A stretch of 31,952 nucleotides of DNA from IMG/VR virus record IMGVR_UViG_3300034374_010084, positions 1 to 31,952 of that record, one strand, 5' to 3'. The stretch comes from a virus. The number at the start of each line of letters is the position of its first letter. Position 1 is the stretch's first letter. The notes under the pieces were generated by a model, which was given only the letters and a program-made list of their open reading frames with translations, was not told where the DNA came from and ran no database searches. Positions 1 through 31,952 of this stretch are shown one piece after another. A program made the position numbers and the translations under genes.

Positions 1-127
1 CATCGTCGGATCTGTCGTCACTGTGGGCATGATCGGCGCCTCCTCGGCTCGGTTTTGGGCGAGTCAAACGACAGTCAGACGACAGTCACGCGACAGGCCA
101 TTTTCTAAGCCCCTGTTCTCACAGGGA
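1..127. repeat. Left copy of 127-bp terminal overlap
   Basis: Bases 1-127 are identical to bases 31826-31952. An exact overlap of 127 bp equals a common maximum assembler k-mer, so this most likely marks a circular assembly graph (circular or circularly permuted genome) and not a biological terminal repeat. Features near either end should be read across the join. Confidence 0.95.
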
Positions 128-188
128 AAAAGTGCCGTTCCAAACGACAGTCAAGCGACAGTCAAACGACAGAGCCCCAAAATGGGGC
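61..188. repeat. Iteron-like 11-bp repeats, two triplets with hairpins
   Basis: The core CGACAGTCA starts at 69, 80 and 91 (third copy degenerate) and again at 145, 156 and 167 (third copy degenerate), an exact 11-bp period in each triplet, with the triplets 76 bp apart. Between them lies a perfect 6-bp stem with a TCTC loop (111-126). Directly after the second triplet is a perfect 6-bp stem with a 3-nt loop (174-188). Phased direct repeats in a non-coding region are typical of replication-initiator binding sites or cooperative operators. The role as origin is an inference; read on the minus strand each unit contains TTGACTG, so control of the leftward operon is an alternative. Confidence 0.7.
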
Positions 189-536
189 GACTCCCTGGGT
201 GCGCGTATCCGTCAGATCACAGTGTGTCTGCACGCACCCAGGAGGCCAGAAAAACGACGATCGCAGCACAAAGCAGAAGACCGCGATCGTCACTGGGCAG
301 GGTGATCGTAACCGTCCACTAGTAATGAAGTGTGACTGCCCAGATGGGGGTGCCTGTCGCCCTGTAATGCTAGCTGCTGTGTACCGAACATCTCGCAGCC
401 CTGCTCCTGTAACCACTACCAGGAGGTCTGCTGTCTGTATCTATACAGGGCGACAGACTGAGGCGCTGGGTGGGAGCGATGCGACTCCCTGTGCCGTGAC
501 TGCTGACTGTTGCGTACGACACCCCAGCAGAAGTGA
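189..536. other. Non-coding control region with inverted repeats
   Basis: No open frame here has a convincing ribosome site plus start codon. Visible structure: a perfect 8-bp inverted repeat, acgatcgc (257-264) with gcgatcgt (283-290); another 8-bp pair, ctgggcag (293-300) with ctgcccag (336-343); a further CGACAGACT element at 451-459; and a perfect palindrome AGTGATCACT at 532-541 overlapping the end of the regulator gene. Two AGGAGG strings (240-245 and 421-426, plus strand) are not followed by start codons. Together with 61-188 this looks like an origin or regulatory region. Confidence 0.5.
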
Positions 537-743
537 TCACTCCTGATCAGCCTGATCAGGCTGTGGGAGGAGCTCGCCCGGCTCGACCTGTAGTGCGCGG
601 GCCAGCTTCAGCAGGGTAGAGACGTAGGTGTCACCACCATCCAACTCTATCCTGGCCAGCGTTCGCACTGGAACGCCCGCCTGACGTGCTAGCCAACGTT
701 GCGAGATACCTCGCGATTCTCTGATCTCTCGTGTTCGTAACAT
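537..743 (-). CDS. XRE/Cro-family HTH transcriptional regulator
   Basis: A 68-residue protein made almost entirely of one Cro/C1-type helix-turn-helix: residues about 3-58 show the family pattern LRTREIRESRGISQRWLAR, then QAGVPVRTLARIE as turn and recognition helix, then LLKLARALQVEPGELL. The ATG at 741-743 is preferred because the predicted leftward transcription start lies near 768, so an upstream in-frame start at 803 would fall outside the message; AGGAGG lies 11 nt before this ATG. It is divergent from the early operon and has TGACAC-type boxes in both promoters, so it is probably the repressor or Cro-like switch protein that also controls itself. There is no oligomerisation or protease domain, so it is not a full-length lambda CI type. 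The C-terminal tail DQADQ is encoded by a 9-bp tandem repeat (542-559). Confidence 0.85.
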   Translation of the reverse strand: MLRTREIRESRGISQRWLARQAGVPVRTLARIELDGGDTYVSTLLKLARALQVEPGELLPQPDQADQE

Positions 744-2958: not shown

Positions 2959-3767
2959 CGAAACCCAGAGCTCTGAGACCTTTAGTGCCTAACAGCAACG
3001 TTGAGACGCTGTGCATGGCCATGTTTTGCGCCGGTGTCACCGAGACGTCTTACCCTGCTCATCCTGGGTTGACTGGCTTTGAGTTGGGAGAGCTCTCCCA
3101 ACTCACAACGGACCAGGCTACAAGCTCAGCTGCCTGGATGGCGCGTTGTGGCCGAGCAGTCATCACTACGCCTAGTAAACTATCGTATCGACGGTACGTG
3201 TTGAGCGCTGAGCAGACTGCTCAATGTGCCGCAACATTGCGTGGGCAAGGACGGCAGCGTCCAAAGGTTCCTCTCTCTGAGCAGATCATTAAATTCTTGG
3301 CTGGTGCCCGCCAGCTCACCAGCAGTGAGATCGTATCCTTAGCCACTAGCCTTGGCTGGGGGTCGGGCTCAGTTTACAATCTGCTCTCCAAGATGTGGAA
3401 GCAGGGAGAACTCCAACGATCTGGCCCATCTGGCTGCTACACCTACAGCTTGCCTACACAGCCAGCAGAGCACACCAAACCAGCAGAGACAGTCGAAGGT
3501 TCGACACCTGTCACTATTGAGAGCCACATCATTGAATTCTTGGCTGGCGGGCATCGGTTCACTAGCGGTGAGATTGCATCCTCGCTCGCCAGATTTGGCT
3601 TTGACTCGAGCTCAGTTCTTAGTCGTCTCACCAAGATGTGGCAGCAGGGAGAACTCCAACGATCTGGAGTGCCTGGCTACTACGCCTACAGCCTGCCAGC
3701 AGAGCCAGCAGAGACAGCAGAGCCAGCAGAGCACACCGAGCCAGCAGAGCCAGCAGAGACACGATGA
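2955..3767 (+). CDS. Protein of repeated winged-helix-like units with PAE tail
   Basis: 270 residues, coupled to the ERF gene by an ATGA overlap. Residues 106-166 and 187-247 are two clear copies of one unit: hydrophobic helix (QIIKFLAG / HIIEFLAG), LTSSEI / FTSGEI, a helix ending SKMWKQGELQRSG / TKMWQQGELQRSG, then a Tyr-rich wing (CYTYSLP / YYAYSLP). The pattern is that of a winged helix-turn-helix; residues about 15-84 may be a third, more diverged copy. At DNA level 24 bp are identical at 3401-3424 and 3644-3667, 243 bp apart, so the duplication is recent or under conversion. The last 25 residues are a PAE/PAEPAET repeat. It may bind DNA as a regulator or replication factor; no named family is assigned. 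Confidence 0.8.
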   Translation: MTKPRALRPLVPNSNVETLCMAMFCAGVTETSYPAHPGLTGFELGELSQLTTDQATSSAAWMARCGRAVITTPSKLSYRRYVLSAEQTAQCAATLRGQGRQRPKVPLSEQIIKFLAGARQLTSSEIVSLATSLGWGSGSVYNLLSKMWKQGELQRSGPSGCYTYSLPTQPAEHTKPAETVEGSTPVTIESHIIEFLAGGHRFTSGEIASSLARFGFDSSSVLSRLTKMWQQGELQRSGVPGYYAYSLPAEPAETAEPAEHTEPAEPAETR

Positions 3768-16093: not shown

Positions 16094-16888
16094 TGTCGGG
16101 CCTCCTGTCGTTCTGCTTCTTCATGTACCAGGATTCAGCCTCGCTGCTGGCGCTCTCGATCGCCTGCATGGCTCGCTGATAGTGTAGCGTCTCGTGCCTC
16201 AGCCCGCTGCCGTTGGGCGTGATGCCGTGTCGGTAGCTACCAAACAGGGCAAGCACAGCCTGGGTCCACGGGTGTCGGAGCAGTTTGAGCGGGCACCGAT
16301 TGATCACGGTGCCGCCCAGATCATACGTGAACCCCTGGCCCCAGGGCCCTGCACGACTGGGGCCTTCACAGCCCCATGCCGAGCGCAACGTCTGTGACGT
16401 TCGGCACTTCGCGCAGTCGTTACCGGGTCGCTGGATCTCCTGGACGTACGGCCAGAACGCAGCGGCCCTCAGTCGTTTCCCTCCTCCTCGCTCACCTGTG
16501 AGAGCTCCCACATCTGCTCGCCGATTTTACGCAGCGCCAGGCGTGGGAGGAGAGCGATGGCCGCTGCTGTCAGCCGAGTCAGTCCAGACGGAGCGATCTC
16601 GGTGCAGACAGACGGCCAGTCGTCCAGGTTCTCGACGTCGTCGATACATAGGCAGGCCAGCTCCACATGAGCGCGGGCCATCGCTGGCGCGATCTCAAAT
16701 CGGTTGTCACTCGGGTACTCGATCCCGCCGTCGTCGTCGAGTGTTAGGCCAGCGTGTTGGAACGCCTGCGCCGACTCCTCGGGCGTGGGGTAGTGACACC
16801 ACGCGATGATTGGGGCGTCTGGATCGCTGCTGTCGAAGTGGATCTGAGTGCGGCCACCGTAAAGCCGTGTAAGGTCGAAGCCTGCCAT
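16071..16888 (-). CDS. Tail assembly chaperone, -1 frameshift fusion product (G-T type)
   Basis: Produced when ribosomes slip -1 at 16475-16481 while reading the short chaperone (16469-16888), then continue in the overlapping frame to 16071. The fusion is about 272 residues: 138 from the first frame plus 134 from the second. The extension contains NDCAKCRTSQTLRSAWGCEGP, a Cys-containing stretch that may bind metal, and NRCPLKLL. It ends 23 nt inside the tape measure gene. Like lambda gpGT it should bind tape measure and tube subunits before polymerisation and be absent from the virion. The extension frame has no ribosome site of its own. Confidence 0.88.
16469..16888 (-). CDS. Tail assembly chaperone, short form (G type)
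   Basis: 139 residues, ending EEEGND then stop, immediately after the slippery heptamer. It starts at ATG 16888 with AGGAGG 7 nt upstream; a longer in-frame reading to 17056 would run back into the tail tube gene and is rejected. Features: a beta-rich N-terminus (IHFDSSDPDAPIIAWCHYPTPEE), an acidic middle, and a helical C-terminus (LTAAAIALLPRLALRKIGEQMWELSQ). No sequence family is assigned with certainty; the role comes from position between tube and tape measure and from the frameshift arrangement. Confidence 0.87.
   Translation of the reverse strand: MAGFDLTRLYGGRTQIHFDSSDPDAPIIAWCHYPTPEESAQAFQHAGLTLDDDGGIEYPSDNRFEIAPAMARAHVELACLCIDDVENLDDWPSVCTEIAPSGLTRLTAAAIALLPRLALRKIGEQMWELSQVSEEEGND
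16475..16481 (-). promoter_or_regulatory. Programmed -1 frameshift slippery site GGGAAAC
   Basis: On the minus strand the zero-frame codons are GAG GGA AAC GAC TGA, so G GGA AAC is a perfect X XXY YYZ slippery heptamer, 3 nt before the stop of the short chaperone. Slipping -1 enters the open frame that runs to 16071. Short downstream stems are possible (GGCC with GGCC; CTGG with CCAG), which could act as a stimulator. This matches the conserved frameshift in siphovirus tail chaperone genes. Confidence 0.9.
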
Positions 16889-23506: not shown

Positions 23507-24816
23507 ACGCCCTCCTCCAAGTCGAGCGGGATCTCAAAGGAGGGCTGTGCTGCCGACTCCTCGAGGATCTCGAGCTCAATCTGCTCAATCTGCTGCTCGC
23601 TGCGGTCCGTCATCCGAAGCGCTTCGGAGCGGCTGACAATGCCGGCGCTGTACTGCTGGGTTGCGAGGTTGGACAGCTCCGCTGGATCGCGTCCGGGTCC
23701 TAGCTCGGGGTAGGTGATTTGGAGTGAGCCATCGGGCATAGCCGGGCCACCTTCGAGTGGCACAGTCACGGCAGCGACGCGCCACATCTCACGCTCCCAC
23801 AGTCGCCATAGCTGGCGCTGCTGCTCCCACTGTTCCTGGAGCCCGTAGAGTTTCAGCTTGAGGGCGTAGCCACTCTGGGCTTGCTCGGTGCCGCGTGCCA
23901 CTTCCGGTTTGATCCCGTACAGTTGGAGGATCGACTCGACCTTGGTGAGAAGGGCGTCCAGGTAGGCGGTGAGGTTCGCTTGCATGTCGAGAACCTGGGC
24001 TGACGCCGTCGGCCCTGACAGCAAAAGCGTGGAGCTCGGATCGCTTGCTAGCTTCGCCGTCTTCGAGCGGTCAGAGCCCTCGGTGCGGATGGCGAGCTGT
24101 TTAAACGACTGTAGGTGTCTGAGGTGGTGCCAGTCCGTCATGGCGACGCCGAGCTGTAGCGTGGCCTGGTGGAGCCCCTCAGCCTCGTGCCAGTGCCAGA
24201 ACGTAGCGCTGGGATACTGAGCGTGCGAGCAGACGTAGGGGATCACACCGTAAGGGTTGGCCCGCTCCTCGTTCGGTGTGCGGATCGTCCAGTCGCGGTT
24301 GAGCTCGTAGTGCTCGTCCCGCGTCCACACTGTGAACCCGATTACGTCACCCCGGCTGTTGGTGTCGCTGATCACGACAGCCTTCAGTTTCAGCCTGTCG
24401 AGTTGGTCGGGCACTGCCAGGAATCTGTCAGCCGGCACCACGTCCAGGAGGAGGCGGTCGCCAGCCCAGAACGGCCGTACGAGCGCCTCGCCCTGGTAGA
24501 ACGTCAGTTTGCACGCGAGGTCGAGAGCAAGATCAACCTCGGCCATTGGAGCCAGGAGTGTGTCGCCGATCATCCGGTGGACTGGGCGACTGTAGATTGC
24601 TGCGATCGTGTCTGTCGCCCAGCGGAGAATGTTCATGCTGGTATCGGCACGGCTCAGCAGCTTGTCGGCGTTCTGCGGCAGGAACTGCTTGAGCACCTCA
24701 TCACGAAGCTGCTCGTACCAGTCGTGCTGGTACACCTCACGCCTAGCGAGGCACTTGGTCCGGCGCTTCCTGCTGTAGCCCCATTCCTTCCGTAGATAGT
24801 CAAGATCCAGTGGCAT
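23503..24816 (-). CDS. Portal protein (SPP1 gp6-like)
   Basis: 437 residues between terminase and the MuF-like gene. Characteristic regions: N-terminal tail with KEWGYSRKRRTKCLARREVYQHDWYEQLRDEVLKQFLPQNAD, the wing/stem segment (about 65-210, with ADTSMNILRWATDTIAAIYSRP), and the tunnel region (about 265-350, SGPTASAQVLDMQANLTAYLDALLTKVESILQLYG then EQAQSGYALKLK), where one portal helix ends in 'sGyAlk'. Twelve copies would form the vertex ring for DNA packaging. The start at ATG 24816 is coupled by TGATG to TerL. Confidence 0.85.
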   Translation of the reverse strand: MPLDLDYLRKEWGYSRKRRTKCLARREVYQHDWYEQLRDEVLKQFLPQNADKLLSRADTSMNILRWATDTIAAIYSRPVHRMIGDTLLAPMAEVDLALDLACKLTFYQGEALVRPFWAGDRLLLDVVPADRFLAVPDQLDRLKLKAVVISDTNSRGDVIGFTVWTRDEHYELNRDWTIRTPNEERANPYGVIPYVCSHAQYPSATFWHWHEAEGLHQATLQLGVAMTDWHHLRHLQSFKQLAIRTEGSDRSKTAKLASDPSSTLLLSGPTASAQVLDMQANLTAYLDALLTKVESILQLYGIKPEVARGTEQAQSGYALKLKLYGLQEQWEQQRQLWRLWEREMWRVAAVTVPLEGGPAMPDGSLQITYPELGPGRDPAELSNLATQQYSAGIVSRSEALRMTDRSEQQIEQIELEILEESAAQPSFEIPLDLEEGV

Positions 24817-26147
24817 CAGAACACCTCTATCCCTCTGCCCACTGGGGCGATTAGATGGTTGACGCCGTAGCGCAGACAGTCGAGGACGTGATCGAGTTCC
24901 CCGTCTTTCCGGTAGGTGCGGCCCTCGCGCTTCTCGTCTTTCTCAGCCCGAGCGAACGCCCGGACGATGCCGCGAGGACTGGCCGATTTCTCCGACAGGT
25001 GCGAGTCAATGTACAGTTTCGGCGAGCCCTCCACAGGACGGAGAAGCGCCCGGAGGTGCTCAGTGCCGACACCAACGCTCCGCATGACTGGATCGTGGCT
25101 GTACTCGACACGGAAGCCCGCGCCCTCGAGCACCTCCACGTCTCGACGTCCCGTCTGTATGTCGCGGTTTGCCCCGGCTGGGTCGATGTACGCGACACCA
25201 GGAAGCCAACCCCGGCGCTGTAGGTCGTATCGGATTTCCCAGGCGAGCTGATAGGTGGGGCAGTCGTTCGGCAGGAACTCACCGACGATGTGGATGCACT
25301 CGGTGTTATCGCCGTGGATCGGACAGCGGCTGTCACGGTTGAACCCTTGCAGGTAGACGACAGCGGGCCTCCTCACACCGAGGTCGATCGCGAGATCCAC
25401 AGTAGCGTTCGTGCCGGGTGTCAGGCCAGGGCAACAGTGGATCGCGGTGTCGAACTCGGGGAACACTTGCCCTTCACCGATGCCCCACTCACCGCCAGCG
25501 TATTGACGGTAGAGCGCTTCGGAGTAGGAGCGCCTGAGCGCTGCGTCGTACTCGGCTGGAAGGTAGGGGTTGTCGGCTGTGCTGGCGTTGTGGTCGGCGT
25601 AGCCAGTTTTGGCCTCACCCCACACGTCGTACAGCCAGTTCATCGACGGGGTTGAAGTAACGACGATCGAACGGTGCTGAGCTGACGGAGCACGAACGCG
25701 AGCTATGAGAATCTGCCACGCCTCGCGGGACCAGTAGCGGCCCTCGTCACCCCACGCCCACGCGAGGTTTGCGCCTTCAAGCGTGTCAGGGCGGTCGGCG
25801 CTGCCGTAGTACACTCGAGAGCCGTTCACCAGTTGGAGGTAGCGTTCGGATTTGGCCTGGCGTGCGAGGAGTGGCTTGGGTAGGAGTTGGACAAACGTCC
25901 GAAGCGTGGTGCGGTGTAGGATGCCCCAGGTAGGAGCGACGATTAGCCCGTCGCATTGTGGGTTGGCGATGGCGAGCCGGATCGACTCGGCGGCACCGGC
26001 TAGAGTTTTCCCAGAGCCGACGCCACCACGGAGCAGCCGATAGGGCGTGCGGTCGTCGTGGAAGCGTCGCTGGTGGGGGAGAGGCTTATAGGGGATCGTG
26101 CAGTTGAGCACGGGCCTGGGTTGGAGTTGGGGTGCTGCGCTACTCAT
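24816..26147 (-). CDS. terL: Terminase large subunit
   Basis: 443 residues from ATG 26147, which overlaps the TerS stop by 8 nt; the 147-residue upstream extension in this frame is a shadow of terS. ATPase: Walker A GGVGSGKT (41-48) and Walker B with D134-E135 (AWAWGDE); a coupling-type segment IVVTSTPS (161-168). Nuclease (RNase H fold): D251/D255 (VDLAIDLG), D322 (IDPAG) and a late acidic pair in DGELDHVLDCLRYG. The enzyme packages DNA into the prohead through the portal and cuts concatemers. Length and order are normal for a phage TerL. Confidence 0.95.
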   Translation of the reverse strand: MSSAAPQLQPRPVLNCTIPYKPLPHQRRFHDDRTPYRLLRGGVGSGKTLAGAAESIRLAIANPQCDGLIVAPTWGILHRTTLRTFVQLLPKPLLARQAKSERYLQLVNGSRVYYGSADRPDTLEGANLAWAWGDEGRYWSREAWQILIARVRAPSAQHRSIVVTSTPSMNWLYDVWGEAKTGYADHNASTADNPYLPAEYDAALRRSYSEALYRQYAGGEWGIGEGQVFPEFDTAIHCCPGLTPGTNATVDLAIDLGVRRPAVVYLQGFNRDSRCPIHGDNTECIHIVGEFLPNDCPTYQLAWEIRYDLQRRGWLPGVAYIDPAGANRDIQTGRRDVEVLEGAGFRVEYSHDPVMRSVGVGTEHLRALLRPVEGSPKLYIDSHLSEKSASPRGIVRAFARAEKDEKREGRTYRKDGELDHVLDCLRYGVNHLIAPVGRGIEVF

Positions 26148-26583
26148 CGAACGACACCACGATCTGGGAGACGGTTGGCGTCTGGTCCTGCGGCTGTAGT
26201 CGCTGAATCGCAGCGGTGAGAGAGTTGAGGGCTTTCGTGAGGTCAGCCATTTCCTGGGCGTCGTCCAGGCTGGCGTCAACCTTAGAAATCGCTTTGAGGC
26301 TCGCGCGCTTAGCTCGTGTGACGATCTGCGTCGTGAGGTCGGCTGTCTGCTGCTGGGCTTGGCTGGCGATCCAGACGTCGAAGGCGGCAGCTCGGGCCAC
26401 CCAGTCATGTTGTCGGCTCCACTCTTGCCAGTGCCGAGGTCTTGCCGATTTTTTGCCGATGTCGTGGATCTGCTGATAGGCCAGATCGATCGAGCGCTGA
26501 GAGCCCAGGTGCAGGTATGCACAGAAAGCCTCGAAGGCTTTGGCCGTCTCGCCGTCTTGCCTGTGCCACTCACGCTGTCCCAT
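26140..26583 (-). CDS. terS: Terminase small subunit
   Basis: 147 residues from ATG 26583. The N-terminal half includes AKAFEAFCAYLHLGSQRSIDLAYQQIHD and RHWQEWSRQHDWVARAAAFD, the 'W..W...h.W..Ra.a.D' pattern of small terminases (phage terminase small subunit / DNA-packaging Nu1-like HTH). The C-terminal half is an acidic helical oligomerisation region ending with QIVVSFDE. It would recognise the packaging start site and load TerL. The region immediately upstream (26584-26663) contains inverted repeats. Confidence 0.8.
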   Translation of the reverse strand: MGQREWHRQDGETAKAFEAFCAYLHLGSQRSIDLAYQQIHDIGKKSARPRHWQEWSRQHDWVARAAAFDVWIASQAQQQTADLTTQIVTRAKRASLKAISKVDASLDDAQEMADLTKALNSLTAAIQRLQPQDQTPTVSQIVVSFDE

Positions 26584-26596
26584 GTCATGTGCCCTG

Positions 26597-29827: not shown

Positions 29828-31132
29828 CTAACTAAATGTCTGTCGTGTGCGGTCGAATCGGATGTAGGCCTCGGCGGGTGCTTGGCCTTGTCGCTGTTTA
29901 TCAATGAGCACCATCTCCTGGCCGTCCTCCTCGTGTAGAAAAAGGATCGCGTCGGCGTCCTGCTCGAGCTGGCCCGTCTCTCGAAGGTCGGCCTTCGTGG
30001 GCCTGGGGTTGGGGTTACTCCTCGACACTCTCTTCTCGATCCCACGGTTCATCTGGCAGAGGAGAAGCACGGGGATCGAGAGTTCCTTGGCGAGTGCCTT
30101 GAGCTGACGGGAACAGTCAGCCAGCTCCTGCTCGCGGCTGTGGTACTCGCCCACTCCGCTGAGGAGCTGAAAATAGTCTACGATCAGGAGGTTGAGTGGC
30201 TTCTTGCGGTGCCACTGTCGCACCTGGGCCCGGATCTCTCCGATCGTCTGCTCGGCGCTGTCGTCCAGGCATAGATCCCAGCCCGCCATCCGTTCAGTGG
30301 CTCGTGTGAGGCTGTCGTATCGGCTGACGTCGATCCCGCGTTCGCGGCGCATGTCGGCTGTCGAAACACCTGACATGCTCGAGAGCCACCGCATGGCGAG
30401 TTGGGTAGACGCCATCTCGAGCGAGACAAACCCGACACGCCCGCCCTCACTGAGGAGATGGCGTGCCCACTGCAACGCGAACGCGGTTTTTCCCTGACCT
30501 GGCCGTGCAGCGAGCACCACGAGATCGGGAGGTAGCACCACGAGGAGCTTGTCGAGTTGGGCGAGTCCCGATTTGACTAGCCCGGCGGCGCCGTACTGGT
30601 ACTCTTTGATTGCGTCCCAGGTGGCGCCCAGGATCGTGTGCATGGTCTGGGGCTCGGCGGGTGCTCGGTTGGCCTCCTCCTCTGCGGCCTGGGTCAGCAG
30701 GTCGAGAGCGTGGCTCGCGGTGAGTGCAGACGTGACGTCGTGGTGTACGCGAGCCGTAGCCAGCCACACCGAGCGACGCCGAAACGCGTCTTCCACTAGG
30801 CCGGCGTAGTAGGTAGGCCCGATCGCGGTGACGTGGTCAGAGAGTTCCGTCACGTACGGCAGGCCACCAAGATTATCGATCCACTGGGCAGCGACGGTGA
30901 CCACCGTTCCCAGGTCGATCGAGCCGTGCTCGCGGTGCGCGGCAGCCATCGCCCTCCAGACGTACTGGTGCCTAAAGTCGTAGAAATGCTCGGGTGTGAG
31001 CCTGTCGCTGAGCTCGGGCCAGTGCTCGGGCTGTAGCAGTAGCCCCCCTAGCACGTGCCGCTCAGCCTCGACGGCGCTGGGCGGCTCTAGCTTCAGGTGC
31101 GAAATTTCGCGATCTGCTGTTCGAGTAGCCAC
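29828..31132 (-). CDS. dnaB: DnaB-like replicative helicase
   Basis: 434 residues, the length of a phage DnaB-family helicase. The N-terminal domain (about 17-135) has the DnaB opening EPPSAVEAERHVLGGLLLQPEHW. The C-terminal RecA-like domain has Walker A ARPGQGKT (209-216), Walker B LLIVDYFQLL with D319, SVSLEM-type segment (FVSLEM, 235-240) and an arginine finger-type region (QMNRGIEKRV, about 362-371). It would unwind DNA at the phage fork, ring-shaped as a hexamer. GTG 31132 is the start, after GAGGAGG; it overlaps the initiator gene by 40 nt, a large but ribosome-site-supported overlap. Confidence 0.93.
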   Translation of the reverse strand: MATRTADREISHLKLEPPSAVEAERHVLGGLLLQPEHWPELSDRLTPEHFYDFRHQYVWRAMAAAHREHGSIDLGTVVTVAAQWIDNLGGLPYVTELSDHVTAIGPTYYAGLVEDAFRRRSVWLATARVHHDVTSALTASHALDLLTQAAEEEANRAPAEPQTMHTILGATWDAIKEYQYGAAGLVKSGLAQLDKLLVVLPPDLVVLAARPGQGKTAFALQWARHLLSEGGRVGFVSLEMASTQLAMRWLSSMSGVSTADMRRERGIDVSRYDSLTRATERMAGWDLCLDDSAEQTIGEIRAQVRQWHRKKPLNLLIVDYFQLLSGVGEYHSREQELADCSRQLKALAKELSIPVLLLCQMNRGIEKRVSRSNPNPRPTKADLRETGQLEQDADAILFLHEEDGQEMVLIDKQRQGQAPAEAYIRFDRTRQTFS

Positions 31133-31707
31133 TCTATGTCCTCCTCTGTGTGGGTGTGGTGTGTCGCTCTGTGGGTTGGTGTGTCGCTGGCTGGCTCGGG
31201 TGCTCGCTCAGGAGCTCGAGCGTGGGGCTTCAGCTCGCCCTCGCGGGTGAGGAGCTGCGCGACGTAGCCCCAAGGAAATCGGGCGCGGTGGATTGCCTCC
31301 CAGATCTCCGGGCTAATCTCGCTGGGCTGTGTGCGTGCGAGAAACACCTGGAGTCTGTCACGGACTGCCGATTTTACGCGCTGCGGTGCGCTCCGCTGAT
31401 GTGGTGCGAGCGCCTGAACCCAGCGGGCTGGCACCTCAACCGATCGGTGCTGGGTTTTCGGTGCGGGTGGCCTGGTGACTGCGGCTCGGTAGCAGTACGA
31501 ACGCGGGCCAGCGCTGACGCGCTCGAGCAATCCGAGCTCCACTAGCCCCTTCAGGGCGCGCTGTAGCGAGCGAGCCGAGCCCGCGAAAATCGAGGTCAGC
31601 GCCTGGGTGGTGGTGTCAGCGTTCGGAGCTGACCACACATACAGGGCTATCGCAAACTGCTGATCGCTCAGTGTGCCTGCTGTGTAGAGTGCTGCTAGTC
31701 GTTTCAT
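31093..31707 (-). CDS. Putative replication initiator with winged-helix domain
   Basis: 204 residues from ATG 31707 with GAGGTAGCG upstream; an in-frame start at 31755 lacks support. Residues about 1-85 look like a winged helix (TLSDQQFAIALYVWSA, then TTTQALTSIFAGSARSLQRALKGLVELGLLERVSAGPRSYCYR), a common fold in phage replication initiators. The rest includes a helical region (LAPHQRSAPQRVKSAVRDRLQVFLARTQPSEISPEIWEAIHRARFPWGYVAQLL) and an acidic C-terminal helix. Its place next to DnaB and to the repeat-rich control region suggests it recognises the origin and loads the helicase. The same fold also occurs in regulators, so this is inference. Confidence 0.65.
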   Translation of the reverse strand: MKRLAALYTAGTLSDQQFAIALYVWSAPNADTTTQALTSIFAGSARSLQRALKGLVELGLLERVSAGPRSYCYRAAVTRPPAPKTQHRSVEVPARWVQALAPHQRSAPQRVKSAVRDRLQVFLARTQPSEISPEIWEAIHRARFPWGYVAQLLTREGELKPHARAPERAPEPASDTPTHRATHHTHTEEDIEWLLEQQIAKFRT

Positions 31708-31714
31708 CGCTACC

Positions 31715-31855
31715 TCAATCTGGGTGTGCGCGACCGCCAGGGAGCAGTCGCACACCCTTAGATCTACTCTCTCCGTAGGAGAGAGTCTTCTTTAGAACAT
31801 CGCAAGTCTTAGGCCAAGATCGGGCCATCGTCGGATCTGTCGTCACTGTGGGCAT
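31715..31855 (-). CDS. Small leader ORF spanning the genome join (46 aa)
   Basis: Read here directly. From ATG 31855, whose ribosome site (GAGGAGG, 8-nt gap) lies in the duplicated end, the frame encodes MPTVTTDPTMARSWPKTCDV, continues with a Lys/Ser/Arg-rich part and ends GGRAHPD at 31715, 7 nt before the initiator start. In a circular genome it is the first gene of the leftward unit. The same region forms two inverted repeats, so it may be a leader peptide or a real small basic protein; there is no recognisable family. Confidence 0.5.
   Translation of the reverse strand: MPTVTTDPTMARSWPKTCDVLKKTLSYGESRSKGVRLLPGGRAHPD
31722..31786. promoter_or_regulatory. Two inverted repeats at the head of the leftward unit
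   Basis: GGGTGTGCG (31722-31730) and CGCACACCC (31749-31757) form a perfect 9-bp pair with an 18-nt spacer. ACTCTCTCC (31766-31774), loop GTA and GGAGAGAGT (31778-31786) form a perfect 9-bp hairpin. They lie inside the small leader ORF, upstream of the initiator gene, and could act as RNA structures in an attenuation-like leader or as DNA sites. On the plus strand the second hairpin is followed by CTTCTTT, a weak terminator shape. Confidence 0.55.
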
Positions 31856-31952
31856 GATCGGCGCCTCCTCGGCTCGGTTTTGGGCGAGTCAAACGACAGT
31901 CAGACGACAGTCACGCGACAGGCCATTTTCTAAGCCCCTGTTCTCACAGGGA
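31826..31952. repeat. Right copy of 127-bp terminal overlap
   Basis: Exact duplicate of bases 1-127, the circular overlap of the assembly. It includes the first iteron triplet and the ribosome site and start codon of the small leader ORF. Confidence 0.95.

Follow-up and report, generated by a model that had tools for sequence, protein, structure and literature searches.

Two triplets of short direct repeats, spaced at exactly 11 bp and located in the largest non-coding gap of a circular phage genome, are on balance likely to be iterons, belonging to a phage origin of theta type and bound by the product of a candidate initiator gene at 31093-31707. The exact spacing of the repeats, the selection on their cores, their site in the largest gap, with initiator-like and helicase genes next to it, and the position of that gap at an extremum of GC skew all support this reading. 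The window (the whole stretch of DNA analysed, 31,952 nucleotides) carries an exact 127-bp terminal repeat, so that the contig represents a 31,825-bp unit in which positions 1-127 are the same as 31826-31952, and triplet 1 appears again at 31887-31921 via this terminal duplication. The gap is 654 bp long, and its features are listed in Table 1 together with the neighbouring genes.

Table 1. Features of the non-coding gap and of the genes beside it
Feature	Position	Strand	Description
Repeat triplet 1	62..96	+	AGTCA-nn-CGACAG x3; cores at 69, 80, 91; period 11 bp; no indel in five relatives
Repeat triplet 2	141..172	+	Cores at 145, 156, 167; period 11 bp
Single inverted CGACAG (+ strand CTGTCG), possible outlying site	12..17	-	Columns 13-17 invariant in six aligned sequences
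Short inverted repeat CCCTG/CAGGG between triplets	111..126
Inverted repeat GCCCCA/TGGGGC after triplet 2	174..188
Four perfect inverted repeats	194-203/233-242, 256-264/283-291, 293-300/336-343, 354-366/444-456		Fill rest of gap, 194..456
AT-rich stretch, candidate unwinding element, between initiator gene and array	31758..31825
Candidate replication initiator, 204 aa, winged-helix-like	31093..31707	-	Alternative GTG start at 31755 possible
DnaB-type replicative helicase, overlaps initiator gene end	29828..31132	-	Pfam DnaB_C 3.9e-62; phrog_19 4.1e-80
Cro/CI-like HTH regulator	537..743	-	HTH_3 4.6e-11

The repeat array

The sequence-only reading had described six copies of a 9-mer, CGACAGTCA, at exact 11-bp intervals. 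The six starts and the spacing are correct, but the 9-mer is complete only at 69, 80, 145 and 156, and the third copy in each triplet is CGACAGGCC or CGACAGAGC. AGTCA-nn-CGACAG, counted from 62, fits the array better as a unit than the 9-mer does. The triplet block is itself a 76-bp tandem duplication. The copies had also been placed on nearly one face of the helix, which is true within a triplet, where the phasing is good (11 bp overshoots a 10.5-bp turn by 17 degrees), but not between the triplets, which are 76 bp or 7.24 turns apart, about a quarter turn off.

The array is not due to chance. Counted genome-wide, CGACAGTCA has 6 matches against 0.47 expected, two of them stemming from the terminal duplication, and none of 100 shuffles reaches 6. 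An unbiased scan over lags 5-44 gave the tracts at 62-96 and 141-172 scores of 16.5 and 16.0, the top two lag-11 scores in the genome, against maxima of 9.5 at lag 11 and 13.5 at any lag in 20 random genomes. Higher scores were obtained only at 3695-3752, for a 9-bp tandem repeat in coding DNA and its multiples; this repeat, of Glu-Pro-Ala type, is stronger than any other short tandem repeat in the genome. In the gap, CGACAG is found 9 times against 1.4 expected (P=1.5e-5), with single copies outside the triplets at 12 (minus), 354 (minus) and 451 (plus). An Rfam search gave no match, and no paper naming a CGACAG-type repeat was found in the literature searched.

Conservation in relatives

Conservation of the repeats, one of the checks proposed in the sequence-only reading, was examined in five IMG/VR sequences (L006, L007, L008, L020 and L023). 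All are close relatives and incomplete, with candidate initiator proteins 88-98% identical, and conservation is known only from relatives in which this protein is 88-100% identical. The check came out positive: the repeats are kept more than the surrounding DNA, and all six copies are in phase and indel-free in all five relatives, with a single-letter change in three copies. Mismatches affect 3 of 180 core positions (1.7%) against 50 of 375 non-core positions (13%) within and between the arrays, with a P value of 2e-6 that is only indicative because the compared sequences are related. The alignment argues that the cores are conserved by selection. The block of triplet 2 opens with GCGAGTCA, as that of triplet 1 does, in four of the five relatives (not L008).

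The hairpins flanking the triplets are short. The one between the triplets is real and is kept in the relatives, with one G-U variant in L007; the one after triplet 2 is perfect here, but a deletion and a weaker stem are found in all five relatives. Minus-strand RNA from 1-540 folds better than shuffles (z=-3.9), and the six sequences do not differ in the stem 194-203/233-242. The 29-bp loop of this 10-bp inverted repeat (194-242) is inverted in L007 (102-150) relative to the window and the four other relatives, 27 of its 29 letters matching the reverse complement of the window loop. Recombination or template switching is a possible cause of this inversion.

Neighbouring genes and regulatory sites

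Leftward of the gap are the overlapping genes for the candidate initiator and the DnaB helicase, and rightward the Cro/CI-like regulator, beyond which an early operon encoding an ERF recombinase runs rightward. The array had been said to lie next to initiator and helicase genes, of which the initiator has sub-threshold family matches only. The best weak matches of the 31093-31707 product, none of which passes a family cut-off, are to O-like and other families of replication initiation (phrog_391, O-like initiation, E=0.0044; phrog_270, E=0.012) and to MarR_2 (0.006) and HTH_36 (0.029). Its predicted structure has the HHHEE order of a winged helix at low confidence (mean pLDDT 52). Foldseek searches with this low-confidence model gave no match at E<=0.001; the weak matches were MarR-like proteins and some viral replisome organizers. 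No distant relatives of the candidate initiator were found in phage or plasmid records or by profile. No helicase loader was identified, P-type or otherwise, and the gap contains no DnaA box. The AT-rich stretch is one of six in the genome where a 40-bp window reaches an AT content of at least 0.6 (genome mean 0.38).

The array could instead be an operator and not an origin, a protein on the phased cores controlling the leftward initiator-helicase operon, in whose leader the array is located. It is indeed upstream of that operon and downstream of a promoter-like site at 803-775, and arrays upstream of initiator genes are often autoregulatory. We consider this alternative unlikely, although worth keeping in view. 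A promoter-like site near the array was not found, and an operator would leave the skew extremum unexplained. Moreover, six TGATCA palindromes cluster round the gene of the Cro/CI-like regulator (534, 544, 553, 773, 877 and 888) against 0.17 expected (P=3e-8). They lie at its own promoter, where one overlaps facing -10 elements, and at gene ends; most persist in relatives carrying the other regulator allele. By their sequence and position these palindromes, rather than the phased repeats, seem the likelier operators of the regulator, which is thus a poor candidate binder of the array. The array was rejected as a Cro/CI operator, in which palindromic sites would overlap the regulated promoter: its copies are direct repeats without palindromic symmetry, no promoter-like site accompanies them, and the TGATCA sites fit better. 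Operator and origin roles of the array may coexist.

The regulator gene, compared with L006, L020 and L023, exists as two divergent alleles with nearly identical flanks, a pattern that suggests module exchange.

GC skew

After detrending, the cumulative GC skew is highest at 630, on a plateau that takes in the gap, and lowest at 16,539. The extremes are 15,909 bp apart, where half the genome is 15,912 bp, and the amplitude of 507 compares with a maximum of 371 in 2000 permutations. AT skew tracks gene direction and turns at about 4.5 and 31.8 kb, whereas GC skew does not track it. At fourfold-degenerate sites the coding-strand skew is -0.28 in rightward genes, +0.06 in leftward genes from 4.5 to 16.5 kb and -0.16 in leftward genes from 16.5 to 31.7 kb. 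The skew therefore flips among genes of the same direction, and neither gene direction nor protein composition accounts for the switch at 16.5 kb; the pattern needs a replication-linked component.

The skew check that had been proposed thus places the gap at one extremum, opposite the other, but with a polarity reversed against the usual rule, by which the leading strand is G-rich and the maximum of the cumulative skew is the terminus. The skew consequently supports a replication switch point, not an origin by itself. Among in-gene phased arrays of other phages with enough flank (n=23), five switch in the usual way and none in the polarity of the window. The earlier label of candidate origin is partly upheld by the conserved repeats and the skew extremum, and weakened by the reversed polarity and by conservation seen only in close relatives.

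Taken by the usual rule, the polarity would make the gap a replication terminus, a fork-arrest site or a packaging site, with the origin near 16.5 kb. In other phages, some intergenic phased triplets adjoin terminase genes. We regard this alternative as improbable, more so than the operator. The minimum at 16.5 kb is among structural genes, with no strong repeat around it, while the initiator-like and helicase genes sit at 0 kb. For packaging, pac and cos sites would be in or at a small terminase gene, which is not where the array was found; the terminase genes end at about 26.6 kb, leaving about 5.3 kb to the array, and the large terminase gene (24816-26588) is several kb off.

Phased arrays in other genomes

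Viral contigs were collected in which CGACAG, GACAGC or CAACGG occurs three times at intervals of 11 bp. They contained 67 phased stretches of CGACAG, 87 of its reversed form, which still contains GACAG and so is no neutral control, and 86 of the neutral hexamer CAACGG. The frequency claim for CGACAG as a shared iteron sequence was rejected, as CAACGG with equal phasing is as frequent. A spacing of 10 bp is rarer (24 stretches), and one of ten ORFs covering such stretches is an initiator gene. At 11 bp, the covering genes are DnaD-like, O-like or primosomal in at least 12 of 39 cases for CGACAG, at least 32 of 53 for GACAGC and at least 18 of 50 for CAACGG, counts that are lower bounds (largest single family) from sets that include related sequences. 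Most of the in-gene arrays lie 340-400 nt from the start of the gene, at about half its length, comparable to the position of the lambda iterons in the middle of O. On these counts, initiator genes appear to be marked by the phasing and not by the sequence of the repeats.

In-gene phased triplets of several sequences occur in many unrelated phages (for example L041, L043, L059 and L060), in some followed by AT-rich repeats.

The array had been proposed to define a new initiator-site pair. This is too strong, because iterons usually differ from one replicon to the next and phage initiator genes often contain 11-bp-phased arrays, of several sequences; the array is probably an origin that has its own sequence but belongs to a general kind already known. 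The closer comparison is with intergenic triplets in other phages, and there no excess of initiator families was found among 76 neighbouring ORFs at 27 loci, with terminase, primase and other genes alongside. The analogy therefore backs the origin reading less for an intergenic array. Tentatively, and with the balance somewhat against it, a phasing of exactly 11 bp among at least three short direct repeats, of any sequence, may be a general mark of phage origins with winged-helix initiators (DnaD-like, O-like or primosomal), one wing per turn. The window would then be a rarer case, its array outside the gene and its initiator diverged beyond what present families recognise.

Where cellular genomes carry exact CGACAGTCA triplets, these mostly belong to repeats dispersed between genes in Bacteroidales, and the one in viral contig L022 is in an unrelated structural-gene context. 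Dispersed intergenic 11-bp repeats of ACCCGACAGTC type, several per genome, were seen in Bacteroidales of the Paludibacteraceae (L272, L277, L281, L283, L284 and others). Such repeats between genes, and the duplication of the triplet block at 76 bp, are what a neutral minisatellite might look like, but in all five close relatives the cores are kept while the spacers vary, and copy number and phase are fixed, which makes a minisatellite very unlikely.

Comparison with known systems

The array resembles lambda ori and its lambdoid relatives in having an array of initiator sites, an AT-rich neighbour, and initiator and helicase functions alongside (the sites and the initiator being candidates here). 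The lambda iterons are about 19 bp, have inverted repeats and are located in the middle of gene O (PMC5043065, PMC7466680), whereas the 11-bp direct repeats of the window are outside the gene, none of the best lag-11 tracts falls inside 31093-31707, and no P-type loader was found in the window. The in-gene arrays of L041, L043, L044, L059 and L060 have the same period, at least three copies, sometimes a CGACAG core, and a replication gene; they differ in being inside the gene, about half-way along, where the array in the window is upstream.

The iterons of iteron plasmids are as a rule direct repeats in helical phase (PMC5043065), and in P1, RK2, F and R6K they are beside the initiator gene, as they are here beside a candidate one. 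The plasmid unit is about 20 bp, against 11 bp in two triplets here, and plasmid origins have DnaA boxes (PMC5043065), of which there are none near the array. The PLE satellite of Vibrio cholerae has a RepA initiator with a DnaD-related N-terminal fold and origin repeats in a non-coding region (PMC7145576). The repeats of the window are likewise non-coding, but those of PLE are semi-palindromic, and there is no apparent sequence kinship between the two. Least probable of all is a partition centromere bound by a ParR-like protein: parC of plasmid R1 does have ParR-bound 11-bp direct repeats in two groups, resembling the array, but no ParM, ParA, TubZ or ribbon-helix-helix gene, and thus no linked parM/parR, was seen among the 30 products scanned with Pfam, many of which had no match at all.

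Proposed mechanism and significance

Starting from the repeats, their conservation and their position, we infer with moderate confidence how the iteron origin would work. The winged-helix protein encoded at 31093-31707 would bind one CGACAG core per DNA turn, and two groups of three initiator molecules would wrap or bend the array segment. The resulting strain would open the AT-rich stretch at 31758-31825, where the phage's own DnaB helicase would be loaded. Two forks would then leave the origin and meet near 16.5 kb.

If true, this fixes the origin and the probable initiator for an uncultivated phage group without a close relative among the phage records searched, and it provides a short DNA segment and one protein for the study of binding, phasing and helicase loading. 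The wider pattern, in which many unrelated phages have 11-bp-phased arrays midway through their initiator genes, would locate phage origins from sequence in a simple way. If phasing is a general mark, origins would be readable from the genomes of uncultivated phages.
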